Source: Planctomycetota bacterium (GTDB lineage Bacteria; Planctomycetota; Phycisphaerae; WQYP01). From it: a stretch of 37,172 nt of DNA. The notes under the pieces were generated by a model. It was given only the letters and a program-made list of their open reading frames with translations. It was not told the origin of the DNA and made no database searches. Where the stretch lies: assembly GCA_021831565.1 (NCBI GenBank), contig JAKBMM010000030.1, forward strand, positions 1 to 37,172, written 5' to 3'. Shown here in pieces: positions 9,801 through 26,202 of the stretch (its first letter is position 1; every line of letters starts with the position of its first letter). The translations under genes were made by a program, and so were the position numbers.

Positions 9801-10060
9801 AGTTTGACCGTATCCTCATGCGGGCGGGCGATTACCGTCGTGGAGACGACCTGGCCGAGCTTTCCGCCCGCGGCGGCGCCGGCTTCAATCGCCGCCTTCA
9901 CCGCCGAAACGTCGCCGGTGAAAGTGATGGCGACCATTCCATTGCCCACACGGTGCTGGCCGACGTACTGGACGTTGGCCGCCTTGAGCGCGGCGTCGGC
10001 GGCTTCCACCGCGGCGATCAGGCCCTTGGTCTCGATCATTCCGATTGCTTGTTGCGCCAT
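9797..10060 (-). CDS. BMC-H shell protein
   Basis: The 87-residue protein is a single BMC domain (Pf00936 type) forming hexamer tiles of the compartment shell. It starts AIGMIETKGLIAAVEAADAA and has the pore loop VGNGMVAITF, then GDVSAVKAAIEAG and the edge motif IARPHED. ATG 10060 is chosen because AAGGAG lies 7 bases upstream; the ATG two codons earlier is too close to it. The stop codon overlaps the dehydrogenase start. Its pore differs from the other two BMC-H proteins of this operon (GNG against GSG and GGA). Confidence 0.95.
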   Translation of the reverse strand: MAQQAIGMIETKGLIAAVEAADAALKAANVQYVGQHRVGNGMVAITFTGDVSAVKAAIEAGAAAGGKLGQVVSTTVIARPHEDTVKL

Positions 10061-10101
10061 GAGCATGCTCCTTATAAAACGGAAAACCAGCATCTTGTTG
10101 A

Positions 10102-10141
10102 GAATCCCGGCGCGCCGGGATTCGCCGGACAACGGTCCGGC
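10102..10141 (-). other. Tandem hairpins between ackA and the third BMC-H gene
   Basis: A perfect 22-bp palindrome (10102-10123, GAATCCCGGCG and its complement) is directly followed by a perfect 7-bp stem with loop AACG (10124-10141). There is no T tract. Placed between an enzyme gene and a shell gene, they are likely mRNA-stabilising or processing structures. Confidence 0.55.
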
Positions 10142-10148
10142 GGCCATT

Positions 10149-11363: not shown

Positions 11364-11423
11364 ATCGTTACTTTTCCGCGGAGTTGCGTTCCGCGCGCCG
11401 CCGGGCAACCAGGCGACCATCTT

Positions 11424-11476
11424 GCCGCCGTCATTGCGGCGGGCGAAGATGACCCGCACTAAAAATCGACGGCGGC
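11424..11476 (-). other. Nested stem-loop between BMC-H and ackA
   Basis: A 9-bp outer stem (GCCGCCGTC 11424-11432 with 11468-11476) encloses a 5-bp inner stem (11439-11443 with 11453-11457). It lies in the 171-base spacer upstream of ackA. No T tract follows, so attenuation or mRNA protection is more likely than termination. Confidence 0.45.
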
Positions 11477-11534
11477 GACGCCCGTGCGGCAGCTACGAAC
11501 CCGCGTCCGGGCGGTAGGAAGCCCCACCGTCGGC

Positions 11535-11798
11535 TTAGAAGTTTTCGATCAAGCCTTCCGTGGGCCGGGCGATCACGTGCGAAGCGATCAACTCGCCGAC
11601 CCGCTGGGCCGCCGCGGCGCCGGCTTCCACCGCCGCCTTCACGGAGCCGACGTCCCCCCGGACGATTACCGTCACGTAAGCGCCGCCGATCTGAATGCTT
11701 TTGACCAGGCTGACGTTGGCGGCCTTGAGCATGGCGTCGGTGGCTTCGACAAGGCTGGTTTCACCGCGTGTTTCAATGAGTCCGAGTGCTTGTGACAT
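11535..11798 (-). CDS. BMC-H shell protein
   Basis: The 87-residue protein is a single BMC domain: [20 protein letters not shown], the pore segment [18 protein letters not shown], and edge motif HVIARPTEG. It builds shell hexamers. The GGAY pore loop would put a Tyr or Ala near the hexamer centre, unlike its two paralogues. ATG 11798 has AAGGAA 7 bases upstream. It follows the first BMC-H gene after a 93-base spacer with a small GC hairpin (11866-11880). Confidence 0.96.
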
Positions 11799-11891
11799 AA
11801 ACGTAATTCCTTATGCCGGTTGCTCCGGGCGCAACGTCCCGGAAAATGTTGCGGAATTCAAGAAGGCCGGCGCGCCCGGCGGAGTCCCGCC

Positions 11892-12191
11892 TTACTTTTT
11901 CGCTCCGGCGAGAGCCGCTTTGACTTTGGGCAACACGTGGGCCAGGTCTTCATGAGGCCGGGCGATCACGTGCACGGCCAGGACCTCGCCGATTTTGCCG
12001 GCGGCTTCCGCGGCGGCGTCGATGGCGGATTTGACCGCGCCAACGTCGCCGGTGATAAACGTGGTGACCATACCGGAGCCGATCTTGTCCCAGCCGATCA
12101 TCTGGACGCTGGCCGCCTTGAGCGCGGCGTCGCTGGCTTCAATCAGCGACACGAGTCCCTTGGTTTCGATCATTCCCAATGCCTGATCCAT
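11892..12191 (-). CDS. BMC-H shell protein with C-terminal extension
   Basis: The 99-residue protein is a BMC-domain hexamer protein: ALGMIETKGLVSLIEASDAA, pore loop KIGSGMVTTFITGDVGAV, edge motif VIARPHEDL. It then carries a 17-residue Lys/Ala-rich tail absent from the other two (KVKAALAGAKK at the end). ATG 12191 has AGGAG 6 bases upstream; the preceding GTG is less likely. As second gene of the operon it is probably the most abundant shell tile. Confidence 0.96.
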   Translation of the reverse strand: MDQALGMIETKGLVSLIEASDAALKAASVQMIGWDKIGSGMVTTFITGDVGAVKSAIDAAAEAAGKIGEVLAVHVIARPHEDLAHVLPKVKAALAGAKK

Positions 12192-12219
12192 CACGATCTC
12201 CTTGTAAAAGATGCGCCCG

Positions 12220-12909
12220 CTAGCGCTGCAACTCTATGCGCGTGGCGGACTCCAGGTCGCACGCGTTGCCTTCATCGGTGTCTATGTGCGCTTCGAGTCG
12301 CACCCTGGGGTGCGCGCGCACTTGCATGTTGTCAAACACCACGCCGCAGGGGCCGTGCACGCAGAGCTTCATCTGGTCGCCGTCTTTGACGCCGTAATGA
12401 GCCATATCATCCTGGTTCATGTGTACGTGACGCCGGGCGCGAATGACGCCCCGGGACATGGTCAGCGCCCCGTGCGGCCCCACCACCACGATGCCCGGGG
12501 TATCCTGGTGATCGCCGCTGATCCGCAGCGGCAGTTCGAGTCCCAGAAAAACCCCGTCCGTGTAGCTTAGTTCCACCTGGGTGTAATTGCGAACGGGGCC
12601 GAGAATGCGCACGCCGGGAATCATCCGGCTGCGCGGCCCGATCAGGTTCACCACCTGTTCGCCGGCGAACTCGCCCTGCTGGTAGAGATCCCGCAGCTTG
12701 GTGAGTCGGGCGCCGGGACCGAAGAGAATTTCCAGCGATTCCTGCGAAACGTGCAGATGGCGGGCGGAGACATTGACCACCAGTGGATTCGGCCCGCCGT
12801 TGTGCCGGGCGGGTTGGAAGAGCCTTCCTTCATATTCCAGGCGCCGGCGCAGCGTCTGGCGCACCAGATTCTCCACGACCTTGCGATCCAGCACCATGGA
12901 ATCCGCCAT
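12220..12909 (-). CDS. pduL: Phosphate propanoyltransferase PduL
   Basis: The 229-residue PduL-type phosphotransacylase swaps CoA for phosphate on acyl-CoA inside the compartment, regenerating CoA for the aldehyde dehydrogenase and feeding acetate kinase. The metal-binding histidines His51/His53 (HLHVS), His161/His163 (RRHVHMNQDD) and His208 (AHIDTDEGNA) are present. The first 20 residues (LDRKVVENLVRQTLRRRLE) form an amphipathic encapsulation helix. The start is ATG 12909, because AGGAG lies 8 bases before it and a promoter ends just upstream; a longer in-frame extension would run into the neighbouring gene. It is the first gene of the BMC operon. Confidence 0.95.
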   Translation of the reverse strand: MADSMVLDRKVVENLVRQTLRRRLEYEGRLFQPARHNGGPNPLVVNVSARHLHVSQESLEILFGPGARLTKLRDLYQQGEFAGEQVVNLIGPRSRMIPGVRILGPVRNYTQVELSYTDGVFLGLELPLRISGDHQDTPGIVVVGPHGALTMSRGVIRARRHVHMNQDDMAHYGVKDGDQMKLCVHGPCGVVFDNMQVRAHPRVRLEAHIDTDEGNACDLESATRIELQR

Positions 12910-12943
12910 TGCCAAGGCTCCTGCATACGTTATCGGCAAAGCA

Positions 12944-12974
12944 TGAAATATTTTAGTATATTCTGAAACATTTT
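12944..12974 (-). promoter_or_regulatory. Two 11-bp direct repeats over the BMC promoter, candidate DeoR operator
   Basis: On the plus strand TGAAATATTTT (12944-12954) and TGAAACATTTT (12964-12974) differ at one base and start exactly 20 bp apart, two helical turns. They overlap the -10 and the -35. DeoR-family proteins often use repeated short sites, and the only specific regulator of this operon is a DeoR protein. Confidence 0.5.
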
Positions 12975-12978
12975 GCAA
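12950..12978 (-). promoter_or_regulatory. Promoter of the BMC operon
   Basis: On the minus strand a -35 TTGCAA (12978-12973, 4 of 6) and a -10 TAAAAT (12955-12950, 5 of 6) are 17 bp apart in AT-rich DNA. The start would be near 12943, giving a leader of about 34 bases to pduL. The next ten genes have no comparably good promoter. Confidence 0.65.
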
Positions 12979-12992
12979 GACACGGCGAACTT

Positions 12993-13562
12993 CTATAACT
13001 TGAGAAAATTCTCCAGCAGCTTGTAGCCTTCCGGCGTGAGAAAGCTTTCCGGATGGAACTGCACGCCGTGCAGCGGCCAGGTTTTGTGCCGCACGCCCAT
13101 GATTTCCTTTTCCTCGGTCCACGCCGTGACGATGAAATCCGCCGGCAGCGTGCCGGGACGAATGACCAGGCTGTGATACCGCGCCGCTTCAAAAGGATTC
13201 TTCAAACCCGCGAACACGCCCAGATTGTCATGATAAATCGGCGAGGTTTTTCCGTGCATCAGCCGCCAGTTTCGCTCCACCACCGCGCCGAAGGCGTAAC
13301 CGATGCACTGATGGCCCAGGCAAACGCCCAGAATCGGCAGGCGGGCGGAGAAATGCTTGAGCACTTCGTTGCTCACCCCCGCCTGGCGCGGCGTGCAGGG
13401 GCCGGGCGAAATGATGATTCTCCGGGGCTGGAGTTTGTCTATTTCCTCAATGGTGATTTTATCGTTGCGAACGACCCGCATCGACAACTCGGGTGAAATT
13501 TCGCCCAGCCGCTGCACCAGGTTATAGGTAAACGAATCATAGTTGTCGATCAGCAGAATCAT
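12993..13562 (-). CDS. trpG: Anthranilate/aminodeoxychorismate synthase glutamine amidotransferase
   Basis: The 189-residue class I glutamine amidotransferase supplies ammonia from glutamine to the TrpE or PabB partner for anthranilate or 4-amino-4-deoxychorismate synthesis. It starts MILLIDNYDSFTYNLVQ, has the oxyanion motif SPGPCTP, the nucleophile Cys81 in GVCLGHQ, and His170/Glu172 in QFHPES, so the triad is complete. TrpG and PabA cannot be told apart by sequence alone and may be one shared protein. No synthase partner lies nearby. It precedes the BMC operon on the same strand but that operon has its own promoter. There is no Shine-Dalgarno: the message may be leaderless. Confidence 0.95.
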   Translation of the reverse strand: MILLIDNYDSFTYNLVQRLGEISPELSMRVVRNDKITIEEIDKLQPRRIIISPGPCTPRQAGVSNEVLKHFSARLPILGVCLGHQCIGYAFGAVVERNWRLMHGKTSPIYHDNLGVFAGLKNPFEAARYHSLVIRPGTLPADFIVTAWTEEKEIMGVRHKTWPLHGVQFHPESFLTPEGYKLLENFLKL

Positions 13563-13568
13563 GCGGGA

Positions 13569-13574
13569 ATTATA
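13569..13574 (-). promoter_or_regulatory. -10 box placing the trpG transcript start at its ATG
   Basis: A perfect TATAAT ends only 6 bases before ATG 13562. Transcription would begin at or within a base or two of the start codon. No Shine-Dalgarno is present and no clear -35 is seen 16-18 bp upstream. Confidence 0.45.
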
Positions 13575-13677
13575 ATCCGGGACGGGGCGTCCGCGATACC
13601 ATTCTCCCCGGAGAAGGCTTGCTCGACGGGAACGGGCGTGGTAGAGGAAGCGTGGCTACGGCGATGGAGAAGACTAT

Positions 13678-14211
13678 TTGTCAAACCAACCGAAAGAAAC
13701 GCCTTTCTGGCGCATGGAGAACAACCAGATCATCGTGAACCCGCCGGTAATCACCTTCTGGTCGAAATTTCGACTTGTTTTATCGGTGGTCATCGCCATG
13801 GCGGCCGGAGCGCTGGCGGTATTGGTTATCTTTCAGCCGGCATGGTTTGATCTTCCCGATCCGCGGATGGCCTACCTGGGCGCGGGGATGCTGTTTCTCG
13901 CGGCCGTGGCTCAGATGCTGCTCATGGTCACGTCCGTCCTGGGCGCGACGGCGATTGTCCGCGGCGACGGCATCAACGTGCGCGGGCGGCGCTATCCCTG
14001 GTCGCGGATCAAGCGGATCGCTACGGAGCAAACGCCGTTCGATCCGGCCGGCCGGCCGGCGCTGGTGCTGATGGTCAGGAAACGCCGCCGGGAAAAGAAG
14101 ATCACCATCATTCGGGCGGGAATGGTGGGGGAAGGCGAACTGGCCCCGTTGGCGCGGCAGATCGATCAACTGATCCGGCAGTTCGCCGCCAGGAATCTAT
14201 CTGAAAAATAG
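13678..14211 (+). CDS. Two-TM membrane protein with PH-like cytoplasmic domain
   Basis: The 177-residue protein has two hydrophobic segments at about residues 33-52 (LVLSVVIAMAAGALAVLVIF) and 65-90, then a C-terminal domain starting at about 93 (IVRGDGINVRGRRYPWSRIKRI). That domain resembles the bacterial PH/YdbT-type fold attached to paired helices. The start is TTG 13678 because GGAG lies 8 bases upstream; ATG 13714 lacks one and would cut the N-terminal tail. It is divergent from trpG and convergent with the Qmo-like operon. The function is unknown; a stress- or envelope-related role is only a guess. Confidence 0.75.
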   Translation: MSNQPKETPFWRMENNQIIVNPPVITFWSKFRLVLSVVIAMAAGALAVLVIFQPAWFDLPDPRMAYLGAGMLFLAAVAQMLLMVTSVLGATAIVRGDGINVRGRRYPWSRIKRIATEQTPFDPAGRPALVLMVRKRRREKKITIIRAGMVGEGELAPLARQIDQLIRQFAARNLSEK

Positions 14212-14231
14212 TCCGGACGGATGGCGCGTTT

Positions 14232-14789
14232 TTACAGGAATATGACCTGCTTGGATTCGCTGATCAGGTTGATGAACGTGCCCACGCCGACATAATCCAG
14301 ATTCGGATAATTCATCATTTCCCGCGGTTGGAAGCCCATCACATTCATGGACATCTCGCAGATATGGATGCGCACACCCAGTTCGCCCGCTTCCTGGATC
14401 AGTTGCTCGAGTGATTTGACACCGCGCCGTTGCATGACCGCCCGGATCATTTTCGGACCGACACCGGCCATCTGCATTTTGGAAAGCGGCAAGGCCCGCG
14501 AACCGCGGGGCAGCATCATGCCGAACATGCGGTCCAGCAACCCTTTTTTAGGCGACTTCTTCGGGTCGCGCAGGGCGGCAATCGCCCAGAAGGTGAAAAA
14601 CATATCGACTTGGATGTCGTAAGCGACGGCGCCCAGCGCGATGATGAACGCCGCGATGGTGGTATCAAGATCACCCTGCATCAGACCAATGGCCAGCCGG
14701 TCGTTGCCCGCGGATTTCTCGAGCGTATCAACACGCGCCGCCAGCTCCGCCAGTTTTTTATCCAGATCCGAGATTTCCAAAACAGCCAT
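14232..14789 (-). CDS. DsrE2-type sulfur carrier protein
   Basis: The 185-residue protein starts with a coiled coil (about 5-27, LDKKLAELAARVDTLEK) and continues as a DsrE/F-like domain: RLAIGLMQGDLDTTIAAFII, then VDMFFTFWAIAAL, the pattern of DsrE2. The expected sulfur-carrying residue is Cys144 in HICEMSMNVMGF. DsrE2 proteins bind persulfide sulfur and exchange it with TusA, often at the membrane in sulfur oxidation loci. It is the last gene of the operon, with AAAGGAG 6 bases before ATG 14789. The first 41 codons and the leader exist a second time at 24097-24270. Confidence 0.93.
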   Translation of the reverse strand: MAVLEISDLDKKLAELAARVDTLEKSAGNDRLAIGLMQGDLDTTIAAFIIALGAVAYDIQVDMFFTFWAIAALRDPKKSPKKGLLDRMFGMMLPRGSRALPLSKMQMAGVGPKMIRAVMQRRGVKSLEQLIQEAGELGVRIHICEMSMNVMGFQPREMMNYPNLDYVGVGTFINLISESKQVIFL

Positions 14790-14867
14790 GATAAACTCCT
14801 TTATGTATGCCGCTAATACTCAATTTCCCGCCGGCGGCGGATAGCAGCAAATTGCGGCGCCCGCTAC

Positions 14868-16025
14868 TCAGGCGGCCACCGCCGCGGCGGCCTGGCCCGT
14901 GGACTTGCCGGCGGCTGGCGCCGCTGCCCGCTTGACACCGGCGAGATAAATGGCCAGGGGCCGATACATTATGTGCGACCACTTGCCGAACGGCACTTCC
15001 ACCACCAGCATCGGCACCGCAATGGACAAGTGGATGACATAAATCACGTACGTCGCCACAGGCAGACCATTCACACGAAAAATATTCACCATAATTCCGG
15101 TTAACGCCGTGAGAAAAAGCATGACAAGAAATATCCAGTCGCTGGCCGCACTGAATAAATGGATGGGTTCCTTTTTGCGTCCGCGCGAAATCATAAAATC
15201 AGCGGTGGGATACAGAATCGCCAGGGTTGCATAATAACCCCATAAGCGCTGCGGATAGTAGAAGGGATAAATTTTATCGGTCTGAAACCATCGCAGCAGA
15301 ATCAGCACAAGCGTGAGCATACTCAGATAGCCCGAAACCAGCAGCAGGTGTTTGAGCCAGCGAACTCCACCGGGTTCGGATCCACATTTCCGCCAGCGTT
15401 TCTGCGTAAACAAATGTTCGAAAAACACCGGAACCTGCCGGAGATAAAGCAGGGGAGAAATTCGCAGCATCTTTTTTCCTCCCAGAACCCACCAAGCCAT
15501 GCGCAAGGCGTTGGTAAGCAGGAAAAAGGAGAGGACCGCCGCCATGATCCAATCGCCGAATTCAACCCAATGAACCGGTGCGAAGGTATTAAGTTCCACG
15601 CGCTGCAAGACCACCGGTCCATGCAGCGATACAAACAACAGGGTCACGAACAGACCAACGGCCAGGATCGCGACTATTTCGGCTAGCGCGGACTTGTAAA
15701 ATAACCCGGCCAGCCCGGTCCAGTCGTAGCGCGCGGTAAGGTAACGGCGCGCGGCCATCATGGTTTCCGCCGGGTTGGCCCGCCGCGGGCAATTGGTGGT
15801 GCAGTCTCCGCAATAATAGCACAACCAGGGATCAAGACTTTCCATCAGCTTGCTCTCCCGCCCGGTCTGAATCAGGCGTATCACGCGGCGGGGAAAACCG
15901 CCACCGGAGTCTTCCGACAGGGGACAGATGGTGGTGCAGGTTCCGCAGTTCATGCACAGATCAACATCTTTTCCGCCGAATTCGGCGATGGCCAGGCGCC
16001 GGTTGGAATTAAACTTTCCGGCCAT
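14868..16025 (-). CDS. qmoC: QmoC-like membrane-bound Fe-S subunit (HdrC/HdrE fusion)
   Basis: The 385-residue protein has the length and order of QmoC from sulfate reducers. Two [4Fe-4S] motifs come first, Cys24/27/30/34 (CMNCGTCTTICP) and Cys69/72/75/79 (CYYCGDCTTNCP). Six or so membrane helices follow from about residue 110, with His residues (LKHLLL, VIHLS, WSHIMYRP) that could bind heme b as in NarI/HdrE. It passes electrons between cytoplasmic flavoprotein subunits and the quinone pool. The start is ATG 16025 with GAGGTG upstream, as the longer frame overlaps the preceding gene. The C-terminal 25 residues are Ala/Lys-rich. Confidence 0.92.
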   Translation of the reverse strand: MAGKFNSNRRLAIAEFGGKDVDLCMNCGTCTTICPLSEDSGGGFPRRVIRLIQTGRESKLMESLDPWLCYYCGDCTTNCPRRANPAETMMAARRYLTARYDWTGLAGLFYKSALAEIVAILAVGLFVTLLFVSLHGPVVLQRVELNTFAPVHWVEFGDWIMAAVLSFFLLTNALRMAWWVLGGKKMLRISPLLYLRQVPVFFEHLFTQKRWRKCGSEPGGVRWLKHLLLVSGYLSMLTLVLILLRWFQTDKIYPFYYPQRLWGYYATLAILYPTADFMISRGRKKEPIHLFSAASDWIFLVMLFLTALTGIMVNIFRVNGLPVATYVIYVIHLSIAVPMLVVEVPFGKWSHIMYRPLAIYLAGVKRAAAPAAGKSTGQAAAAVAA

Positions 16026-16071
16026 GAGAACACCTCGCATTTCCTTCGGACCGATATCCGTGGCGGGATAT

Positions 16072-16386
16072 TCAGTCCTTTTTTTGCGGCTCTGATGCAA
16101 CCAGACCATAACGGATGTAACCGCCCATCTCGCCAAACTCCCGCACCTGGCCGTATTTGCGCATTGCGGCAATGTGCCATAAAACTTCGCCCGACGGCAA
16201 ATGCAGACTCTCCGCCAGAGAAGGAACAGTATCCGGCTGTTTCTCCAAGGCCTGGCGAATGGCTTGGCGCGCGGAGAGAAATTCTTGGTGGCGTTTTAAT
16301 TTTATTTCGTCGGCTCCGCCGATGCTTTGCCGGAAATCAGCAAGCGATTTTTTCTGTTGGGCGTTAAGAGCTTTCCGGGCCGCCAT
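16072..16386 (-). CDS. Small winged-helix-like protein inside the Qmo-like operon
   Basis: The 104-residue protein has a charged N-terminal helical half (about 1-50). Its C-terminal half reads like a winged helix: VPSLAESLHLPSGEVLWHIA as helix-turn-helix, then MRKYGQVREFGEMGGYIRYG as wing. I cannot name a family. It starts at ATG 16386 with AAAGGA upstream, 16 bases after the QmoB-like gene and 46 before QmoC. Possible roles are regulation or complex assembly; the D. vulgaris qmo operon also carries a small extra gene (qmoD), but I cannot claim homology. Confidence 0.75.
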   Translation of the reverse strand: MAARKALNAQQKKSLADFRQSIGGADEIKLKRHQEFLSARQAIRQALEKQPDTVPSLAESLHLPSGEVLWHIAAMRKYGQVREFGEMGGYIRYGLVASEPQKKD

Positions 16387-16402
16387 GGGAACCCATCCTT
16401 TC

Positions 16403-18253
16403 TCAATTGACCGCGGACGGAGCAATATCCCGCACCAGCCCATCGACCATCGCGTCGTATTGATCCAGGCGCCAGCCGTTGAGGTTGATCGCTCGCGTCG
16501 GGCACACCGCCACACAGGCGCCGCAACCCACGCACAGGCCGGGGTTTACCAGGGCCATGCGCACGGCATGCCCATCCCGCCGTGTCTGAGTCATGGTCAA
16601 GGCGCCGGCATAGTCGCACTGCGCCAGGCAGGCGCCGGATCCTTCGCATAGCCGGGTATCAACCTCGGCCACGTAGGGGTTCAGTTCAACCTGTTCCTTG
16701 CTGAGCATCGCGCGGGCCTTGACGGCCGCCGCACCCGCGGCCGCGAGGGTTTCCTGAATGTTCATGGGCGCCTGCGCCGTGCCGGCCAACAACACGCCGT
16801 TGACTGAAATTTCCACCGGCCGCAATTTGGGATGTATTTCCTGAAGAAACCCATCCTCGCCCCGTGGCAGTTTTAACTGCTCTACAATGGTTTCACAGGG
16901 GCCGGGCGTCATGCCGACCGCCAGCACCACCATGTCCACTTCCATGTTCATTTCCTCCCCCCAGGAGAGATAATCTTTGACGGATACCCGCAACGGCGAT
17001 TTGGCGCCATTCGTTCCAGTCACCCTGGGTGGTTCAGCGGAGTGATAACGGAAGAAGACCACACCAGCCCGCGCGGCATCCGTGTAATATTCCTCATGGC
17101 CGCGGCCATATGTACGAATGTCCTGGTGCAGATCGTATACGCGTGTCCCCGGAAATCTCCGCCGAACCTGCAAAGCCTGATGGAGCACCGTTGTACAGCA
17201 GACACGGGAACCATACGCGTGCAAGCGCCCATCCGGACCGGGCGTATGAACACCATCCACCTGCCGGCTGCCCACACAGTGAATAAAGGCGATGCTGCGG
17301 ATGGGCCGGCCATCAAACATAAGTGTTCCCTCGCCGCAATCCCGCCGGGTCAACAGGTCATTGAAATCCACGGTAGTGACAACCGCGGGATGCCGCCGGT
17401 ACATGAACTCGCCGTCCGCCGGAACATAAGGCCGGTAGCCTGTGGCCATGACCATGACGCCGACCGTGGTCCGGACATCCGTGGTCCGGCCGGAAGGGCC
17501 GAAATCACCGCGAATAGCAACCTCAAAATTACCAATGAAGCCGCTGACTTTGACGACTTGACTTTTAAGCAGAATTTCAACCAGCGGATGGGACATGACT
17601 TGTGATGCAAGCTTGTGGGCCAGTTCCACTGCCGCGTCGGCGGTTGGAAACAGGCGGTTAAGGGTATGCAATTTTCCGCCAAGTCGGTCCGATCTCTCCA
17701 GGAGGAGCACGGGAATACCACAGGCGGCCAAATCCGCAGCCGCTTTCATGCCCGCCGGACCACCGCCGACCACCAGCGCCCGGCGATGATTGGGCAGGCG
17801 TATTTTTTCCAGCGGAACGGATCGGCTGACCTTGCCCACCGCGGCGCTGATCAGCGCGATCGCCTTGGCCGTGGCGCCGTGCGGATCGTGCTTGTGCGCC
17901 CAGGAGCATTGCTCTCGAATATTGACGTGTTCATACAGATATTGATTCATTTTGCCGCGCTGCACCGCGCCGCGGAAAGTCAGTTCATGCAGAAACGGCG
18001 AGCAGGACGCCACCACCACGCGATCAAGATTTTCCCGCCGGATGTCATCGCTGATTGTCTGCTGACCCGGGTCGGAGCACAGGAAGGTGTGAACTTTGGA
18101 AACCGCAACGCCGGGGATCCGCCGGCAAATCCCGGCAACGTGCTCGGTATTGACCACATCGGAAATATTGCCGCCGCAGCGGCAGATATAGACGCCCACC
18201 CGCAACTTTCCGGAATCGCTGGAGTCCGAAATTTTTTCAGGGGAAGTATCCAT
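16403..18253 (-). CDS. HdrA/QmoB-like flavoprotein with N- and C-terminal Fe-S domains
   Basis: The 616-residue protein is a full-length HdrA: an N-terminal cluster domain (VGVYICRCGGNIS with Cys24/26, then FLCSDPGQ, ASCSPFLHE, REQCSW), an FAD-binding domain (RALVVGGGPAGMKAAADLA at about 157-175, RLGGKL), thioredoxin-reductase-like core, and a C-terminal two-cluster ferredoxin. The second ferredoxin motif is complete (Cys574/577/580/584, CVGCGACVAVCP). In the first the second ligand is Ser539 (CEGSGACLAQC; Cys536/542/546) and the usual Pro is Asp. HdrA proteins move electrons between flavin and iron-sulfur partners, sometimes by bifurcation. With the separate MvhD-like protein it would make up what is one QmoB chain in Desulfovibrio. 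ATG 18253, AAGGAG upstream. Confidence 0.9.
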   Translation of the reverse strand: MDTSPEKISDSSDSGKLRVGVYICRCGGNISDVVNTEHVAGICRRIPGVAVSKVHTFLCSDPGQQTISDDIRRENLDRVVVASCSPFLHELTFRGAVQRGKMNQYLYEHVNIREQCSWAHKHDPHGATAKAIALISAAVGKVSRSVPLEKIRLPNHRRALVVGGGPAGMKAAADLAACGIPVLLLERSDRLGGKLHTLNRLFPTADAAVELAHKLASQVMSHPLVEILLKSQVVKVSGFIGNFEVAIRGDFGPSGRTTDVRTTVGVMVMATGYRPYVPADGEFMYRRHPAVVTTVDFNDLLTRRDCGEGTLMFDGRPIRSIAFIHCVGSRQVDGVHTPGPDGRLHAYGSRVCCTTVLHQALQVRRRFPGTRVYDLHQDIRTYGRGHEEYYTDAARAGVVFFRYHSAEPPRVTGTNGAKSPLRVSVKDYLSWGEEMNMEVDMVVLAVGMTPGPCETIVEQLKLPRGEDGFLQEIHPKLRPVEISVNGVLLAGTAQAPMNIQETLAAAGAAAVKARAMLSKEQVELNPYVAEVDTRLCEGSGACLAQCDYAGALTMTQTRRDGHAVRMALVNPGLCVGCGACVAVCPTRAINLNGWRLDQYDAMVDGLVRDIAPSAVN

Positions 18254-18264
18254 CGTCCACTCCT

Positions 18265-19623
18265 TCAGCCGGCTCTATTTCCGGCGACATCCAAGGCGAC
18301 GGTCTGGGGCCGCTTATGCATATCCGCCACATGATGGCGGTACAGATAAGCACCGGCCTCCATGGCCGCCGCGCCGGCCTCGGCAATGCTGTCGGCTATA
18401 TCTTTTGGACCGGCCGCGACGCCGGCGACGAAAATTCCGGGAACATTCGTGGCACATGGCGAGGCGGGATCGGGCGTGACCACAAAGCCGTCGGGCCCGA
18501 GGCGCACCGGTGAAATTTCCGAAGGATTCCATTGGGGAATCATTCCCTGCGCCAGCACAACCAGGTCGTGCCGCTGTTTGCGAAGAAAGTTCTCCGGCTC
18601 CTCCGTCAACTCCACATGCACGAGAAGATCATCATGATCGACCGGATCAATCCGGGATACTTTGCCCCGTATAAAATTAATGCCCATGGCTTTGGCGTTC
18701 TGGTAGAACTGTTCATGCCCCTTGCCAAAGGCGCGGATGTCCATGTAGTAGATGGTGATATCGGCGGTGGGTAGCGCCCCGGAGAGCAGCATGGCCTGTT
18801 TGATGGCGTACATGCAGCACACGCGCGAGCAATAGGGCACGCCTATCGTCTGATCCCGTGATCCCGCACACTGAACAAAGGCGATGGAGCCGGGAATTTT
18901 CCCATCGGATGGCCGCAGGACCCGGCCATAGGGCCCGTGCGGGGCCAGCAGACGTTCCAGCGTAAGCGGCGAAATGACATTCCGGCTTTGGGCCGCACTG
19001 TATTGGGGCTTGAGGGTCAGAGCATTAAGCTCAAATCCGGAGGCGATAAGCACGGCGTCCGCGCGGATTGTTTCCTTACGTGGTTGCTGGTCGAATTCAA
19101 TGGCGTCCGTAGGGCACGCGCGCAGGCACAGTCCGCACGCCAGGCAATAATCCGGATTCAGCAGAGCCTTCTGGGGAATGGCATTGGTAAAGGCCACGGA
19201 AATCGCCCGGGCGGATCCGAGACCTTCCTCCAACGGATCGGGGTATTCCGTAGCGCAGGCATATTCGCACATCCGGCAGCCGATGCATTTATCCGTGTTC
19301 ACATACGTTGGTTTCCGCGTGAGAACAACCATATGCCCGTCCGGGCCGGGTGTCATGGAGTTTACCTCGGTATACGTGAGCAATTCGATGTTTTCATGGT
19401 GTGCCGCAGCGGCCATTTTGGGCGTGGTAATGCAACTGGCGCAATCCAGCGTGGGAAAGACCTTGCTAAGCAAAATCATGCGGCCGCCGATACTGGGCCG
19501 GCGTTCGACCACCAGCACCTGGTATCCCTGATCAGCGAGGTCCAGGGCGGCTTGCAGGCCGCCGATGCCGCCGCCGATGATTAAAACATCGACATGTCGT
19601 TGGGTATTGGCGTTAGCAATCAT
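18265..19623 (-). CDS. qmoA: QmoA-like FAD-dependent oxidoreductase with two [4Fe-4S] motifs
   Basis: The 452-residue HdrA-like flavoprotein is shorter than HdrA and lacks its N-terminal domain, like QmoA. It has VDVLIIGGGIGGLQAALDLA (dinucleotide fold at 11-30), DCASCITTPKM at 60-70, and two inserted [4Fe-4S] motifs, Cys113/116/119/123 (CIGCRMCEYACATEYP) and Cys160/163/166/170 (CLACGLCLRACP). It closes with the FAD-binding IFVAGVAAGPKDIADSIAEAG. ATG 19623 fits the family's short N-terminus; ATG 19641, touching the upstream stop codon, is the alternative. It exchanges electrons with the HdrA-like partner and QmoC. No AprAB, the usual electron partner of QmoA, is encoded here. Confidence 0.92.
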   Translation of the reverse strand: MIANANTQRHVDVLIIGGGIGGLQAALDLADQGYQVLVVERRPSIGGRMILLSKVFPTLDCASCITTPKMAAAAHHENIELLTYTEVNSMTPGPDGHMVVLTRKPTYVNTDKCIGCRMCEYACATEYPDPLEEGLGSARAISVAFTNAIPQKALLNPDYCLACGLCLRACPTDAIEFDQQPRKETIRADAVLIASGFELNALTLKPQYSAAQSRNVISPLTLERLLAPHGPYGRVLRPSDGKIPGSIAFVQCAGSRDQTIGVPYCSRVCCMYAIKQAMLLSGALPTADITIYYMDIRAFGKGHEQFYQNAKAMGINFIRGKVSRIDPVDHDDLLVHVELTEEPENFLRKQRHDLVVLAQGMIPQWNPSEISPVRLGPDGFVVTPDPASPCATNVPGIFVAGVAAGPKDIADSIAEAGAAAMEAGAYLYRHHVADMHKRPQTVALDVAGNRAG

Positions 19624-19641
19624 AACCGCACGCCTTTCCAT

Positions 19642-20130
19642 TCATTTCCCCGCGCCGCCGGCGGCATGATCCTGTTGTACGGGCCGCAGGTCCGCGCGGG
19701 CGGCGAGTTCCAACCGTCCCGCCCCGGCGCGGTTCACCGGTCCCAGCCGGCGCAACGCCTCGTCCAGTTGTCCAACTTCCTTGAGATAAGCCTTGATACA
19801 GACCGTGCATATCGCCGTGAGCCGGAGACGCGCAATTTCCAGCCCACCGACTTTCATTCGACTGGTCAGCCGGTCCATGCGGGCCGCCAGCCGGTCGTAC
19901 GCGCCGCGGTAGGGACAATCCGAACCGCAGGCGGCGATCAAAATGCCGTCAATACCCCGGGCATAGCCGCGCAGGTAGAAATCCTCTGGAAACAGCACCG
20001 GCGAGGGAACCCGGAACACATAAATATTGGCCCCGTATTCGAGATGAGCCTTACCCACCGCGTCGGCTCCCGGGTAAGCGCAAGCCTCCGTGGCCAGAAC
20101 CAGAATTTTTGGCACAAACGAGTCGGCCAT
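19642..20130 (-). CDS. MvhD/FlpD-family iron-sulfur protein
   Basis: The 162-residue protein belongs to the hydrogenase delta subunit (MvhD/FlpD) family. It shows EACAYPGADAVG (Cys17), a strand-rich middle with FRVPSPVL, ACGSDCPYRG (Cys68, Cys72) and ICTVC (Cys108, Cys111), enough for one [2Fe-2S] cluster. MvhD links HdrA to electron donors such as hydrogenase or formate dehydrogenase, and the same domain is the C-terminal part of QmoB in sulfate reducers. Here it is a stand-alone gene just before qmoA. ATG 20130 has GAGGTG upstream. No hydrogenase or formate dehydrogenase gene is near. The last 25 residues are low complexity. Confidence 0.9.
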   Translation of the reverse strand: MADSFVPKILVLATEACAYPGADAVGKAHLEYGANIYVFRVPSPVLFPEDFYLRGYARGIDGILIAACGSDCPYRGAYDRLAARMDRLTSRMKVGGLEIARLRLTAICTVCIKAYLKEVGQLDEALRRLGPVNRAGAGRLELAARADLRPVQQDHAAGGAGK

Positions 20131-20202
20131 ACCGCACCTCACAAGCTGGCCATACCCTTGCCCTACAGGCCCCGCCGGCGGCGCCGCCCGGAGCGCACCT
20201 TG

Positions 20203-20460
20203 TTATTTCTTCCGGCAGACAAAAATTCGATCGTGACCATCCGCCTCAATGAGTCCGAGAAATTCGTGTCCGATCTTGGCGGCCCAGGCTGAAATATCCT
20301 GGCGCGATCCCTGGTCGTTGGATTTCACTTCGATAATCTGGCCGACTGGCACCGCGCCAATGCCCTTTTTGGCCTCCAGCAGCGGGCCGGGGCAGGCGGA
20401 GCCGCGGGCGTCAATGATCTTGGCGGCGGTAAGGGCGGCGAGTTGTTCACTGGACATCAT
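20203..20460 (-). CDS. tusA: TusA-family sulfurtransferase
   Basis: The 85-residue TusA fold protein carries persulfide sulfur on Cys23 of the CPGP motif (DARGSACPGPLLEAKKGIG), and it has the closing strand FLGLIEADGHDRIFVCRKK. TusA proteins pass sulfane sulfur between rhodanese, DsrE and Hdr-type systems. ATG 20460 has AGGAG 9 bases upstream. Genes on both sides belong to the same operon, which pairs TusA at the start with DsrE2 at the end. Confidence 0.95.
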   Translation of the reverse strand: MMSSEQLAALTAAKIIDARGSACPGPLLEAKKGIGAVPVGQIIEVKSNDQGSRQDISAWAAKIGHEFLGLIEADGHDRIFVCRKK

Positions 20461-20485
20461 GGTTGTGTTCTCCTGTCAAAAGTCA

Positions 20486-20884
20486 TTAGGGGACCGCTTT
20501 CTCCGCGGCCAAACCGTTTTTCCCTATCGCGGGCGCTGCGCGGGTGGGGCGCCACGGCGCACCGGCCGCCTGGAGCGCTTTGCGGCGCGTCTGTTGCAAC
20601 AACAATTGCCGTATCAACTCAGCGGCCTGGAGCAAGCGCGCGTCCGCCACGCGGTAAAATACTTGCTGGGCGTGTTTTTCGGCGACCACCGCGCCCTTGT
20701 CCCGCAGCAGGCGCAAATGCTGCGAGGCATTGGGGAGCGACACCTGGGCATAGGCGGCGATCTGGGACACCGTGCGGGGCCGCCGTCGCAGCGCGCAGAA
20801 GATCCGGATACGCACGGGATGCGCAAAGACGGTGAAAAAATCCCCGATCATCTCGCAGACGCGCTCGTTGAAGTTGCGGTCCAT
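20486..20884 (-). CDS. ArsR-family repressor of the Qmo-like operon
   Basis: The 132-residue winged helix protein: dimer/HTH core FFTVFAHPVRIRIFCALRRR, then TVSQIAAYAQVSLPNASQHLRLLRDKGAV (recognition helix) and the wing HAQQVFYRVADARLL. The metal site of ArsR/SmtB (ELCVCDL) is absent. It has two cysteines, Cys10 and Cys30; Cys30 lines up with the first redox cysteine of the persulfide sensors SqrR/BigR, while the second one (after the wing) is missing. ATG 20884 has only a weak ribosome binding site, and the longer frame would translate the operator. It is the first gene of the operon and stands behind a palindrome that is probably its own site. Confidence 0.9.
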   Translation of the reverse strand: MDRNFNERVCEMIGDFFTVFAHPVRIRIFCALRRRPRTVSQIAAYAQVSLPNASQHLRLLRDKGAVVAEKHAQQVFYRVADARLLQAAELIRQLLLQQTRRKALQAAGAPWRPTRAAPAIGKNGLAAEKAVP

Positions 20885-20912
20885 GGCGCACCACCCGGCA
20901 TTGCGTTTATCA

Positions 20913-20936
20913 TTAGTTGCGTAACTTCGCAACTAA
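20913..20936. promoter_or_regulatory. Palindromic operator for the ArsR regulator
   Basis: TTAGTTGCG (20913-20921) and CGCAACTAA (20928-20936) form a perfect 9-bp inverted repeat with a 6-bp spacer, the size and spacing used by ArsR-family dimers. It lies just after the predicted transcription start and before arsR, a place where binding blocks transcription. Confidence 0.7.
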
Positions 20937-20944
20937 CTGATTAC

Positions 20945-20973
20945 ACTTTAGGAGAAGTAGAGACGATTGTCAA
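20945..20973 (-). promoter_or_regulatory. Promoter of the arsR-tusA-qmo-dsrE2 operon
   Basis: A perfect -35 TTGACA (20973-20968) and a -10 TAAAGT (20950-20945, 4 of 6) are exactly 17 bp apart on the minus strand. The start would fall at about 20938, directly against the palindromic operator. Confidence 0.7.
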
Positions 20974-21029
20974 GCGGCCGGCTGGCGGCGGCGGGACTCT
21001 TTTTCGTAACCGTTCACGGGTAACGCCTC

Positions 21030-21345
21030 GGTACTTTTTTGATCGGGTCTTTGCCGCCCTGAAGCCGGCGTCCTTTGAACGCTGTTTTACACGCTGGATC
21101 AGAAGTCTTGTCAAAGCCTCCAAGGGGCGACTGATCGCGGTGGACGGCAAGACGCTGCGGAGAAGTTTTGATCAGGCCGCCAGCCGGTCGGCCATCCACA
21201 TGGTCTCCGCATTTGCCTCGGCCAACCACCTGGTCTTCGGCCAGATCAAGACCGCCGCCAAGGACCTCTCGCGCCTACGCCGCATTGCCTTGAACATACT
21301 CCAACGCGAGATCACCGAAAAACGAAGTATCCGGAGACCCGAAAA
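21030..21345 (+). pseudogene. ISAs1-family transposase remnant with N-terminal loss and in-frame internal deletion
   Basis: The frame reads as the middle of an ISAs1 transposase (FFDRVFAALKPASFERCF, then GRLIAVDGKTLRRSFDQAAS with the first catalytic Asp, then HMVSAFASANHLVFGQIKT). It then jumps in frame to the C-terminal motif LSRLRRIALNILQREITEKR. About 180 codons with the remaining catalytic residues are gone, and so is the N-terminus. GTAACCGTTCACGG at 21006-21019, just upstream, may be part of an element end. Confidence 0.8.
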
Positions 21346-21575
21346 GGTGACATCCACATTTTTCCGCCTCCGCCCCCCGCCTTGCGGCGGGAAAGCTGCG
21401 CCGGAGAAAAGGGTGAATGCGGATATGTGGGCAATAAGTGGCTATTTTGCGATTGGCTTAGCGCGCGATCTGGAATAAAATCGGCGGCATGATTCTGGCG
21501 AGGCCCGCCAATCTGAAGATTGATCTGCCGCTCTCGCGGATTGGGGCGTTATGTCACGCCTTTGGCCCCGCGGGG

Positions 21576-21674
21576 TTGGCCGGAAACGCCCCGGCTGCCG
21601 CGTTCCTCGGGCCGCAAAGACCTGGTGAGGTCGTTTCGGCCCTGTGTCCTTGCGGCCGGGGCGTTTCCAGCCAA
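21576..21674. repeat. 20-bp inverted repeat, possible degenerate element or long hairpin
   Basis: Arms 21576-21595 and 21655-21674 match over 20 bp with one mismatch (core GGAAACGCCCCGGC). The 59-bp centre is GC-rich without a gene. It is the only structure I see between the ISAs1 remnant and the AT-rich leader (about 21739-21775) of the antiporter gene. Confidence 0.45.
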
Positions 21675-21788
21675 GCGCAATCCCGTCCGATATCGCGCTG
21701 TGGTGTTGGAACGCGTTACCGCTGGAAGCGGCAAGATAATTAAGTTTATATATATTTGTTAATAAATATAACCAAGTAAGGTGAACCG

Positions 21789-23957
21789 ATGCTGAACCTG
21801 CTGCTCCAGATCGGGGTAATTATCCTTGTTTCCCGGGTTCTAGCCTGGGTGATGCGATTTTTCGGCCAGCCACAGGTTGTCGGCGAAATGATGGCAGGCA
21901 TTGTGCTTGGCCCCTCCGTTCTCGGGTTGCTCTATCATGGTGTATGGTTTCATATGCTTTTTCCGGCTACCCCCGGACCGGATCCATTCCCATTTCTCAA
22001 CATGCTGGCGCAGATTGGCGTCATGTTCTTCATGTTCCTCGTTGGTCTTGAGTTTGATCTCAACGCGCTTCGCGATCAGGGAAAGCCCATTCTTATCACT
22101 GGTCTGGCCAGTCTCCTGACGCCCATGCTTTGCGGCTTTCTGCTTTCCGGATTTTTGTATCAGGAATTTCATGGGACATCCGGCGGGCTGCCGATATTTG
22201 TTCTTTTCGGTGGTGTGGCGATGTGCATCACCGCCTTTCCCGTTCTGGCCCGAATTATTACCGAGCACAATCTTCAGAAGACCTCAACCGGTGGCGTGGC
22301 GTTGGCGTGCGCCGCGTTCAACGATGCCGCCGGCTGGTGTCTGCTGGCGCTGGTGCTGGCCATCTCCACCGCTGTGGGCTTGGGAAAGCATTCTCCCGAC
22401 CCCATTCTCCACGCGTTGATGACCCTTGTCTGGTCGGTCCTTTTCGCGGCATTCATGTTCACCGTGATGCGGCGTTTTCTCCGTAAACTTCAGGAACTCT
22501 ATTCCACCCGCGGCTATCTGTCGCAAACTGTCATGGCCGGGATATTTCTGTTGATTGTCGCGTGCAGCTTTATCACTCAATGGATTGGTATTCAGGCTAT
22601 ATTTGGGGCGTTCCTGCTTGGTGCGGCGATGCCGGCGGAGGGACGTTTCGTTCGCCATATCTCAGAAAAAATAGAGGACTTTTCCCTGCTGTTCCTGCTG
22701 CCTGTCTTTTTTGCCTATACCGGTCTGCGTACGGAGATAGGCTTGCTCAACACGCCGCATTTATGGATGGTCTGCCTGGTCGTGGTATTGGTGGCGACCG
22801 CGTCAAAATTTGTCGCAAGTACACTGGCGGCGCATTTCACCGGCATGCGCTGGCGGCAGGCCGGTGTGATTGGATCTCTGATGAATGCGCGCGGTCTGGT
22901 GGAATTAATTGTGCTGAATATCGGTCTTTCTCTTCACGTTCTTTCGCCGCAAATGTTTACCATTCTGGTTGTGATGGCACTCCTAACAACCTTCGTGACC
23001 ACACCGCTCATGTACGCCATCTATCCACCCAAGGCTCTGCGGCGCGATGAAGGTCTGGATGTGCCGCAGGCCGGCCCCGAAGAACAACGAGTTCTGGTCA
23101 GCGCCTCTTCGCCGCTTACCGCACGCGGCTTGCTTCAGGCCGGTGTGCTGCTGCTCGGCGGCGAAAGTCGCCAGATTTATGCCCTGCATCTGGAAACACC
23201 GGAAGAGCATGAAGTTCGGCGCAAATCGCTGCGCACCGGCGCCAATCCGCTTGTCATCATGCAAAGACGGGCGGTAAGCCTCGGAATTCCCGTGGAAGCC
23301 GTGCATCATGTCAGCCGCAATATCGCCGATGACATCTGCCGCAATGCACGTCTCTATAGTGTTGATTGGATTGTCCTGGGCGGCCATCGTGGACTGCTGA
23401 CGGCCTCCTCGTCGGTTGGTGGTGTGGTGCAGCAGGTTCTCGAACAGGCGCCAGCCAATGTCGCGATTCTTATTGATAAGGGCATGGACAACGTCCAGCG
23501 AGTGCTTGTGCCCTATCTTGGCGAAGTCCAGGATGCCGGAGCACTGTTAGCGGCGGAAAGAATTGGACGAATATTGGGCGTCCAAATCACTATTTTGCAC
23601 GTCGTCAAGCCGCATCGCGATACCAGTTCGCAACCCCTAGGCGTTCGCGGGTTGGTTGATCAGTACATGCCGGCAACCACCGGCACAGAGCGCGTCCGCA
23701 TGATTGTCACGGAGAGTGATGCTCCGGTCGAGCCGGTTATTGCCGAATCCGCAAACCACGACCTGGTGGTCATTGGTATGGCGCCGCATTGGAATCTTAA
23801 GCAGGGGCTTCTGGGCCGGTCGCAAAGTTCCGTCGCCGAGCGAAGCGCCTGCTCGGTCATGATTGTTCAAACGGTGGGCAAGCCCGTTTCCGGTGAAAGG
23901 CGAATCGCGCCATCCGTTCCCACGCCCCCGGTATCTCCACCCGTCGGACACCCCTAA
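21789..23957 (+). CDS. CPA2-family cation/proton antiporter with tandem Usp domains
   Basis: The 722-residue protein has an N-terminal Na+(K+)/H+ antiporter domain of about 12-13 helices (to about residue 415). It includes the family motif MFFMFLVGLEFDL, the cross-over region GVALACAAFNDAAGWCLLAL, and QAIFGAFLLGAAMP. The cytoplasmic part (about 430-700) has two universal-stress-protein-like repeats: RVLVSASSPLTARGLLQAGV and DWIVLGGHRGLL in the first, RVLVPYLGEVQDAGALLAAE and LVVIGMAPHWNLKQGLLGR with SVMIVQ in the second. Such fusions may gate transport by nucleotide. ATG 21789 has AAGGTG 6 bases upstream. The gene is less GC-rich than its neighbours and lies between transposon remnants, so it may have been acquired. 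Confidence 0.93.
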   Translation: MLNLLLQIGVIILVSRVLAWVMRFFGQPQVVGEMMAGIVLGPSVLGLLYHGVWFHMLFPATPGPDPFPFLNMLAQIGVMFFMFLVGLEFDLNALRDQGKPILITGLASLLTPMLCGFLLSGFLYQEFHGTSGGLPIFVLFGGVAMCITAFPVLARIITEHNLQKTSTGGVALACAAFNDAAGWCLLALVLAISTAVGLGKHSPDPILHALMTLVWSVLFAAFMFTVMRRFLRKLQELYSTRGYLSQTVMAGIFLLIVACSFITQWIGIQAIFGAFLLGAAMPAEGRFVRHISEKIEDFSLLFLLPVFFAYTGLRTEIGLLNTPHLWMVCLVVVLVATASKFVASTLAAHFTGMRWRQAGVIGSLMNARGLVELIVLNIGLSLHVLSPQMFTILVVMALLTTFVTTPLMYAIYPPKALRRDEGLDVPQAGPEEQRVLVSASSPLTARGLLQAGVLLLGGESRQIYALHLETPEEHEVRRKSLRTGANPLVIMQRRAVSLGIPVEAVHHVSRNIADDICRNARLYSVDWIVLGGHRGLLTASSSVGGVVQQVLEQAPANVAILIDKGMDNVQRVLVPYLGEVQDAGALLAAERIGRILGVQITILHVVKPHRDTSSQPLGVRGLVDQYMPATTGTERVRMIVTESDAPVEPVIAESANHDLVVIGMAPHWNLKQGLLGRSQSSVAERSACSVMIVQTVGKPVSGERRIAPSVPTPPVSPPVGHP

Positions 23958-23989
23958 AAATGCCGCGACTTGTGTGATTCAGCTGCTTG

Positions 23990-24063
23990 TTTTTGCGGCT
24001 ATTTCCGCAGTTCAATACATGATAGAGGACGCCGCCCACAGCGGCCCGCGCAATTCGCGGCAT
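23990..24063 (-). pseudogene. N-terminal fragment of a REP-associated tyrosine transposase (RAYT)
   Basis: From ATG 24063 the minus strand encodes MPRIARAAVGGVLYHVLNCG, the typical start of Y1/TnpA_REP proteins (the usual YHVLNRGN reads YHVLNCGN). The similarity stops after about 24 residues; the HUH pair and the catalytic Tyr are absent. It begins 33 bases after the stop codon of the dsrE2 fragment. Confidence 0.65.
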
Positions 24064-24096
24064 GATTGCGAAGCTTAGCGAACTATATCCCATACG

Positions 24097-24270
24097 TTAA
24101 AGATCACCCTGCATCAGACCAATGGCCAGCCGGTCGTTGCCCGCGGATTTCTCGAGCGTATCAACACGCGCCGCCAGCTCCGCCAGTTTTTTATCCAGAT
24201 CCGAGATTTCCAAAACAGCCATGATAAACTCCTTTATGCCGCTGATACTCAATTTCCCGCCGGCGGCGGG
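24097..24270 (-). pseudogene. Duplicated 5' fragment of dsrE2 with its leader
   Basis: Bases 24100-24269 repeat 14667-14840 with only a 4-bp indel (TATG, in the leader) and one substitution. The copy keeps AAAGGAG and ATG 24222 and encodes the first 41 residues of DsrE2 before a TAA at 24099-24097. On its far side it joins a 21-bp sequence (24261-24281) that is also found upstream of the arsR promoter at 20986-21006. It looks like a deletion derivative of a duplicated operon. Confidence 0.85.
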
Positions 24271-24302
24271 ACTCTTTTTCGGGGGGGCACGAGCGCGGAC
24301 GT

Positions 24303-24413
24303 CCCCGTTCGCCGGGAGCCGCCGGAGCCGAAGCCGCGCTCCGGCCGAATCCGTCCCAACAGCGGCGATGGCGCCGCCCCGAAAATGGTCACACCCGCCG
24401 GCGGCGAACGGGG
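24303..24413 (-). repeat. 12-bp inverted repeat after the ABC transporter operon
   Basis: CCCCGTTCGCCG (24303-24314) is matched inverted at 24402-24413, adjacent to the stop codon of the last permease gene. The 87-bp centre is GC-rich. It may form the 3' structure of the transporter mRNA; no T tract is present. Confidence 0.4.
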
Positions 24414-24414
24414 G

Positions 24415-25308
24415 TCATCCCTTGATGCCGGTAGTGGCGATCCCCTCAATGAAGGTCCGCTGGGCCAGAAAAAACAGGACCAATACGGGCAGCATGACCA
24501 GCACGCTGGCCGCCATGAGCATGTTCCACGACGTGCCGCCCAACTGCGACTGGAAACTTTGCAAACCCAGGGCGAGCGTAAACTGATCGGCCCGCTGAAG
24601 ATAGACCAGCGGCCCGATAAAATCGTTCCACACTCCCAGAAAGGAGAACAGCGCCACGACGCTTAACGCCGGCTTGGACAAAGGCAGAATCACGCGGGTG
24701 AAAATGCCGAATTCCGAGCAACCGTCGATGCGGGCCGCCTCGGAAAGTTCATCCGGTATAGTCAGGAAAAACTGCCGCAGAAGGAAAATATTGAATGCCA
24801 CGCCAAACCATGCCGGAACCCACAGCGGTTTGAAAGTTCCCAGCCAAGCCATACCGGTATGATCGCCCAGCCAGCGAAAAATGATGAACAACGAAACCAT
24901 GAGCACGGGAAAGGGGATCATCATGGTGGCGAGCAGCACGGCAAACAGAATGCCGCGACCCCGGAATCTGATTTTGGCGAAACCATAAGCGACAATCGCG
25001 CTGGAAAGAGTCGCGCCCGTCACCACCAGCGCCGCCAGGAACAGCGAATTGCGCGTCCAAAGCAGAAAATGGTATTCGTGGGTGTTGAACAGGTCGAGAT
25101 AATTCTTCCACCGGCAGGGGTGCGGAATCCACTGCGGCGGGTAGGCCACCGCCGCCCGATTGGTTTTCAAACTGGTGGACAACGTCCAGAGAAAAGGAAT
25201 GATCGCCACGGCGCCTATGGTGAGCAGGGCCAGATGCGTGAGCGTTTTTTTCCAATACAACGCCCGGCGTCGCGGGCGGGCTTTCACCTTGAATGTCGAA
25301 GGCCTCAT
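24415..25308 (-). CDS. Sugar ABC transporter permease, MalG-like
   Basis: The 297-residue inner-membrane protein has six predicted helices and the EAA loop EAARIDGCSEFGIFTRVILP at about 190-210, which docks the ATPase. It has the conserved MalG start (IPFLWTLSTSLKTNRAA) and ends TFIEGIATTGIKG. With the MalF-like partner it forms the channel of a CUT1-type oligosaccharide or monosaccharide importer. It starts 3 bases after the preceding stop. No ATP-binding gene is encoded nearby, so a shared MsmX/MalK-type ATPase is needed. Confidence 0.94.
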   Translation of the reverse strand: MRPSTFKVKARPRRRALYWKKTLTHLALLTIGAVAIIPFLWTLSTSLKTNRAAVAYPPQWIPHPCRWKNYLDLFNTHEYHFLLWTRNSLFLAALVVTGATLSSAIVAYGFAKIRFRGRGILFAVLLATMMIPFPVLMVSLFIIFRWLGDHTGMAWLGTFKPLWVPAWFGVAFNIFLLRQFFLTIPDELSEAARIDGCSEFGIFTRVILPLSKPALSVVALFSFLGVWNDFIGPLVYLQRADQFTLALGLQSFQSQLGGTSWNMLMAASVLVMLPVLVLFFLAQRTFIEGIATTGIKG

Positions 25309-25311
25309 GCG

Positions 25312-26202
25312 TTATCCACCCTGGTAATGCACCCAGTGCCGGGCGCTCCAGAACGCCAGGGCGGTCAGGGCCAGAATCAGCAGAAACTGCACCCAGGCCA
25401 TGGCGCTGGCATAGCCCATCCGCAGATACTTAAACGCGCTGTCGTATAAATACATGGTGTAAAAATAAGTCGCCCGTACCGGCCCGCCGCCGGTCATGAT
25501 GAACGGCGCGGTAAAGTTCTGCAGTGTACCGATGATCGCCATCACCAGATTGAAAAAGATCACCGGCGAGATGCACGGCAACGTCACGTGCCGGATTTTG
25601 CGCCACCCGCCGGCCCCATCGATATCCGCGGCTTCGTAGAGTTCCCGGGGCACGTTTTGCAGCCCCGCCAGGTAAATCACCACCGTATTGCCGATCCCCC
25701 AGAAGCTCATGAGCACCAGCGCCGGCATGGCCCAGCGCGGCGAAGAGAGCCAGGCGGGCGGATGCGTCACGCCCAGTTTGCGCAGCGCAAAATTGAGCAG
25801 ACCGAGTTTGGCGTTAAACAACCACAGCCACACCATGGCGGACGCCACCGCCGGCAGCAGCGACGGCAGAAAAACAAGGGTGCGGTACAAGGATAAACCC
25901 CGGACCTTGCTGTTGAGCAGCAAGGCCGCGCCCAGGGCGATGATCATACCCGCCGGCAGCGCCATGGCGGCGTAAGCCAGCGTGTTTTCCAGCGCGGTCC
26001 AGAATACCGGATCATGGATCATGTGCGAATAATTCCGCAGTCCGATGAATAGCGGGGGTTGGAGCAGCGGATAGTTGCAGAAGCTCAAATACAGAGAAAG
26101 GCCGATGGGAATCGCCAGGAACACGGTCAGACCGATCAGCCAGGGGGATAAAAACGCCATTCCTTTGAGAAAATTACGTGTTTCGATTTTTGTATGGACC
26201 AT
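25312..26202 (-). CDS. Sugar ABC transporter permease, MalF-like
   Basis: The 296-residue protein has six helices, an N-terminal FLSPWLIGLTVFLAIPIGLS segment typical of CUT1 permeases, and the EAA loop EAADIDGAGGWRKIRHVTLP at about 200-220. ATG 26202 has GAGGGGGA upstream. It lies 12 bases after the binding-protein gene and 3 before the MalG-like gene, so the three are one transcript. Confidence 0.94.
   Translation of the reverse strand: MVHTKIETRNFLKGMAFLSPWLIGLTVFLAIPIGLSLYLSFCNYPLLQPPLFIGLRNYSHMIHDPVFWTALENTLAYAAMALPAGMIIALGAALLLNSKVRGLSLYRTLVFLPSLLPAVASAMVWLWLFNAKLGLLNFALRKLGVTHPPAWLSSPRWAMPALVLMSFWGIGNTVVIYLAGLQNVPRELYEAADIDGAGGWRKIRHVTLPCISPVIFFNLVMAIIGTLQNFTAPFIMTGGGPVRATYFYTMYLYDSAFKYLRMGYASAMAWVQFLLILALTALAFWSARHWVHYQGG

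Follow-up and report, generated by a model that had tools for sequence, protein, structure and literature searches.

A short dsrE2 repeat at the border of an insert of nested mobile elements in a planctomycetal genome: a candidate templated repair patch

The start of dsrE2 occurs twice on contig JAKBMM010000030.1 of a Planctomycetota bacterium (GCA_021831565.1), once in the live gene and once as a truncated copy, here called the scar. The question raised by this locus is how the second copy arose. The window is the whole stretch of DNA analysed (37,172 nucleotides). An earlier note on it had taken the scar for the remnant of a duplicated 6-kb qmo operon, collapsed by a deletion between 9-bp repeats. 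The live dsrE2 (14232 to 14789, minus strand) encodes 185 amino acids (Pfam DrsE_2, 5.2e-42). Its leader and first 41 codons (14667 to 14840) recur about 9 kb away at 24100 to 24269 on the minus strand, where the junction itself creates a TAA that closes the reading frame. A base-by-base comparison within the window confirmed the repeat: 24100 to 24238 equals 14667 to 14805 at 139 of 139 bases, and 14806 to 14840 matches 24235 to 24269 at 34 of 35 bases, with one SNP. Between the two matched tracts lies a 4-bp indel, TATGTATG in the live copy and TATG in the scar. The 2.81-Mb draft genome contains the fragment at these two sites only, and in other members of the family the dsrE2 start was not found a second time.

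The scar runs into a 21-bp tract (24261 to 24281, plus strand), which is identical to 20986 to 21006 at 21 of 21 bases, as previously described. Sequence comparison splits the tract into 9 bp shared with dsrE2, CGGCGGCGG, the 3 bp GAC, and another 9 bp, TCTTTTTCG, equal to a presumed IS66 target duplication plus one G. CGGCGGCGG is common to positions 14832, 20986 and 24261. The dsrE2-derived and the arsR-side tracts meet there, and both the 9-bp microhomology junction and the dsrE2 origin of the fragment hold. For random position pairs in this window, the frequency of a 9-bp match spanning the junction is about 1.2e-4. Nine bp of microhomology at the CGGCGGCGG junction is the pattern of a template-switch insertion; at the other end of the scar, 24099/24100, the microhomology is 0 bp and this pattern is missing. 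The source segments identified all fall within a 10-kb span and share one orientation. A search for the exact junction in viral contigs returned none.

The left copy of the 21-bp tract had been placed just upstream of the arsR operon promoter. A distance of 13 bp separates its start from the -35 box of a promoter-like site (20945 to 20973, minus strand; TTGACA, 17 nt, TAAAGT; a consensus match only), and the position is thereby confirmed. It is more than promoter-flank DNA, the tract being the edge of a mobile repeat with an IS66-type target site. The earlier note had named a common repeat as a finding that would speak against its reading. The exact tract is no such repeat: in the whole 2.81-Mb draft genome, GGGACTCTTTTTCG at up to one mismatch was found at these two sites only. 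Its core, however, is a diverged member of a repeat family with 5-7 places in the genome.

The rest of the operon comprises genes for a qmoC-like protein, two HdrA/QmoA-B-like flavoproteins, an MvhD-like and a TusA-like protein, and arsR (14868 to 20932, minus strand), and is collinear in the sister species G016. The QmoC and DsrE2 models both scored under the curated NCBIfam cut-offs (for QmoC, 177.8 bits against 300), so the label 'qmo operon' is not certain. It appears reasonable by the resemblance of the genes to QmoC, HdrA-like flavoproteins, MvhD, TusA and DsrE2. The qmo-arsR-antiporter segment is flanked by the 139-bp perfect direct repeats (14667 to 14805 and 24100 to 24238). Homologous recombination between them could excise this 9.4-kb segment as a circle.

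G016, the only other genome of the genus, shares 92-94% DNA identity with the window; the comparison covered one genome per species. It is collinear with positions 9137 to 25876 on one contig, except for 20975 to 24404. In place of the latter, G016 has 18 bp between the arsR upstream region and the region of an ABC sugar-transporter permease (24415 to 25308, minus strand), which follows arsR directly. This comparison identifies the scar as the right edge of an insert of 3.4 kb that separates arsR from the permease here and is absent in G016. We infer a gain in the lineage of the window rather than a loss in G016, because nested mobile elements lie inside the insert.

The outgroup also dates the scar. 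Scar and live dsrE2 differ by one SNP and the 4-bp indel, while either differs from G016 at 15-16 positions in 170 bp. By these counts the scar is much younger than the split from G016, in agreement with the recent origin claimed before. G016 carries the state of the scar at the SNP and the indel alike, which would most simply assign both changes to the live dsrE2 leader after copying.

The insert is built from several mobile elements. Repeat element 1 (24265 to 24395, family ends GTGTGACAATTTTTCGGGG) has relatives of 76-81% identity at 5-7 places in the genome. Terminal inverted repeats, a length of about 130 bp and several copies characterize it as MITE-like. The left copy of the tract (20986 to 21005, plus strand) consists, by sequence comparison, of 4 bp of flank (CGGC) and the left tip of this element. 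Its last 8 bp (20998 to 21005) are TCTTTTTC, the presumed IS66 target duplication. Adjacent to it lies an IS66-type left terminal inverted repeat, GTAACCGTTCACGGG, which starts with GTAA (21006 to 21020, plus strand) and has 0 mismatches to the genome family. This IS66-type tip later interrupted repeat element 1 at 21006. IS66 elements are known for 8-bp direct repeats and a GTAA tip (PMC11946415). GTAACCGTTCACGGG occurs genome-wide at 119 sites at up to 2 mismatches, bounding elements of 152-154 bp and more, and 8-bp target duplications flank five distinct other IS66-type copies. An autonomous IS66-type copy, L097, has an open reading frame beside the same tip (DDE_Tnp_IS66, PF03050, 9.9e-38) and is the probable source of activity for the MITEs. 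In L097 (G000:C16:111700-113434) the transposase lies beside a GTAACCGTTCACGGG end, and the element runs off the contig. Elsewhere in the window, positions 4504 to 4794 are occupied by a MITE-like, IS66-derived element of about 293 bp that has GTAACCGTTCACGG ends; roughly 119 such ends occur in the genome. A 131-bp MITE candidate at 8257 to 8387 has 30-nt inverted ends (TAGTGCTCTGTCACAG..., 90% complementary).

The right end of the IS66-type element was sought in 21007 to 24300, and none with fewer than 5 mismatches was found. TCTTTTTC recurs at 24273, where the right-hand MITE resumes, but it is preceded by CGGCGGCGGGAC. The block 21006 to 24099 was considered as a complete IS66 transposon and rejected: no terminal repeat lies at its right end, where the best ungapped match has 5 mismatches, and 38% of random stretches give a gapped match of equal quality. 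The element at 21006 is a left-tip remnant, not a whole element. The locus resembles IS66 insertion sequences and derived MITEs in its GTAA tip, with the 8-bp target duplication and transposase present in other genome copies; unlike these, it keeps the left tip only, followed by ISAs1 and other scraps. The ISAs1-family transposase fragment (21040 to 21345, plus strand; NCBIfam NF033564, 2.3e-24) is truncated to profile positions 48-121 of 314. A REP-associated (Y1) transposase is truncated to its first 24 codons (23995 to 24066, minus strand), 18 of 24 being identical to the start of the transposase on G000:C65. A near-palindrome of about 99 bp with 23-nt arms (21576 to 21674) is found between the ISAs1 fragment and the antiporter gene.

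This Na+/H+ antiporter (21789 to 23957, plus strand; PF00999, 3.5e-60) carries a C-terminal universal-stress domain (PF00582, 3.5e-17), and its gene is absent from the locus in G016. The closest relative, with 81% amino acid identity, was found in G010, a member of another genus of the family. A scan of genome contigs for the antiporter returned only the G010-like record and distant relatives. A donor locus with the antiporter beside dsrE2 was rejected, as the region downstream in G010 contains neither the dsrE2 fragment nor the repeat.

With moderate confidence, the best reading of the scar is a patch of templated repair on the right-hand border of an insertion of nested mobile elements. Where G016 passes from arsR to the permease after 18 bp, the window has the MITE-like repeat, its left end broken by the IS66-type tip. 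The right end of that insertion would have been lost or never properly joined, and transposase scraps and the antiporter gene would have come into the block. The free right-hand end (TCTTTTTCGGGG...) may then have primed on the left copy of TCTTTTTCG and copied GAC and CGGCGGCGG. At the 9-bp CGGCGGCGG microhomology, synthesis would have switched to the dsrE2 leader 6.2 kb away and copied about 165 bp. Finally, the end of the patch would have been attached to the block by a homology-independent join at 24099/24100. A narrower version reduces the events to a single IS66 insertion whose right end was joined wrongly and then repaired by serial template switching, the target duplication serving as the first microhomology step; it is rather doubtful.

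Template switching of the MMBIR/FoSTeS type is best documented in eukaryotes. The scar shares with it a short patch whose source lies close by in the same orientation, 9 bp of microhomology at one junction, and a step 21 bp back onto the original template. Unlike such events, the other junction of the scar has no microhomology, and the process is known here from its product alone. The scar would work like a microhomology-mediated template-switch event, a likeness by analogy and not a claim of membership. Homology-facilitated or double illegitimate recombination in the transformable bacterium Acinetobacter baylyi integrates short segments at ectopic sites (cited in PMC8116780). As far as that secondary citation goes, the scar is similar in placing a short DNA segment at an ectopic site and differs in the intragenomic origin of the segment and in its position on the border of a mobile-element insert.

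The repair patch shares its breakpoints with the main competing explanation. In the latter, 14667 to 21006 was duplicated so that the antiporter block came to lie at the junction, and the second copy then lost 6154 bp between the CGGCGGCGG repeats. This course of events is possible but carries a rather low probability, as does the additional proposal that the loss stabilised the insert against removal by homologous recombination. This model accounts for the same three breakpoints, and the right-hand copy of the 21-bp tract passes naturally into an intact repeat element followed by the ancestral flank of the permease. Given the instability of long tandem duplications, an almost complete collapse could be favoured by selection. 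A 9-bp direct repeat at the junction is shared with deletions between short direct repeats in tandem duplications; unlike collapsed duplications, the scar lacks an independent trace of the duplication. No operon gene remnant exists beyond the first 41 codons of dsrE2, and neither this genome nor the family contained a second qmo operon, full or partial, besides the scar. An extra full-length intermediate is needed, and the IS66 insertion must have struck one of the two repeat copies and not the other. The unit contains 159 direct-repeat pairs of at least 9 bp, of which only one, the one used, is spaced by at least 6100 bp; longer pairs (13 bp) at other spacings went unused. Since only this pair gives a near-complete loss, the deletion route is less likely unless selection favoured such a loss. 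The collapsed 6-kb operon of the earlier note is therefore retained for its fitting breakpoints, but not as the simplest reading. In the simplest reading, a short patch of 170 bp is the direct outcome of repair, whereas deletion requires one particular pair of 159 and leaves 186 of 6340 bp. The repair patch is favoured over duplication and deletion, which needs more steps. Against the patch stand the breakpoint at 24099/24100 without microhomology and the missing IS66 right end, which leaves the target duplication at this locus presumed only.

An assembly artefact, in which either the perfect 139-bp repeat or the 21-bp repeat caused a wrong join in the contig, is unlikely. The draft genome consists of 86 contigs and is probably metagenome-assembled, the 139-bp exact repeat exceeds common k-mer sizes, and the join at 24099/24100, beyond the identical stretch, is less well protected. 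However, both outer flanks are neighbours in G016, and the repeat edges match real element tips. At two positions, both no more than about 30 bp from the CGGCGGCGG junction, the scar also has the older allele: it lacks the TATG duplication and has G at the SNP; hence this side was not built from reads of the live copy, although a strain variant could account for it.

A functional scar, with read-through from the ABC-transporter operon yielding a 41-residue DsrE2 N-terminal peptide or a junction hairpin ending the antiporter transcript, is very improbable: the ribosome-binding site, ATG and 41 codons are intact and closed by the junction-made stop, and a terminator-like hairpin with a T run, made by the junction, lies downstream of the antiporter gene (24255 to 24281, plus strand), but conservation outside this genome is lacking, the fold is not significantly better than shuffles (z-score -1.4), and youth explains the near identity. 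An Rfam search for a known RNA family gave no match, and no evidence of a function was seen.

The scar is a well-dated, ordinary genome scar, and it cautions against taking a short gene-fragment repeat for a collapsed operon duplication. If the single IS66 insertion with serial template switching were true, the locus would be an unusual base-resolved record, in a bacterium, of how aberrant transposition and templated repair can be coupled. Beside a sulfur-metabolism operon, the stacking of mobile-element insertion, gene gain and error-prone repair can be read base by base, with an outgroup at hand.
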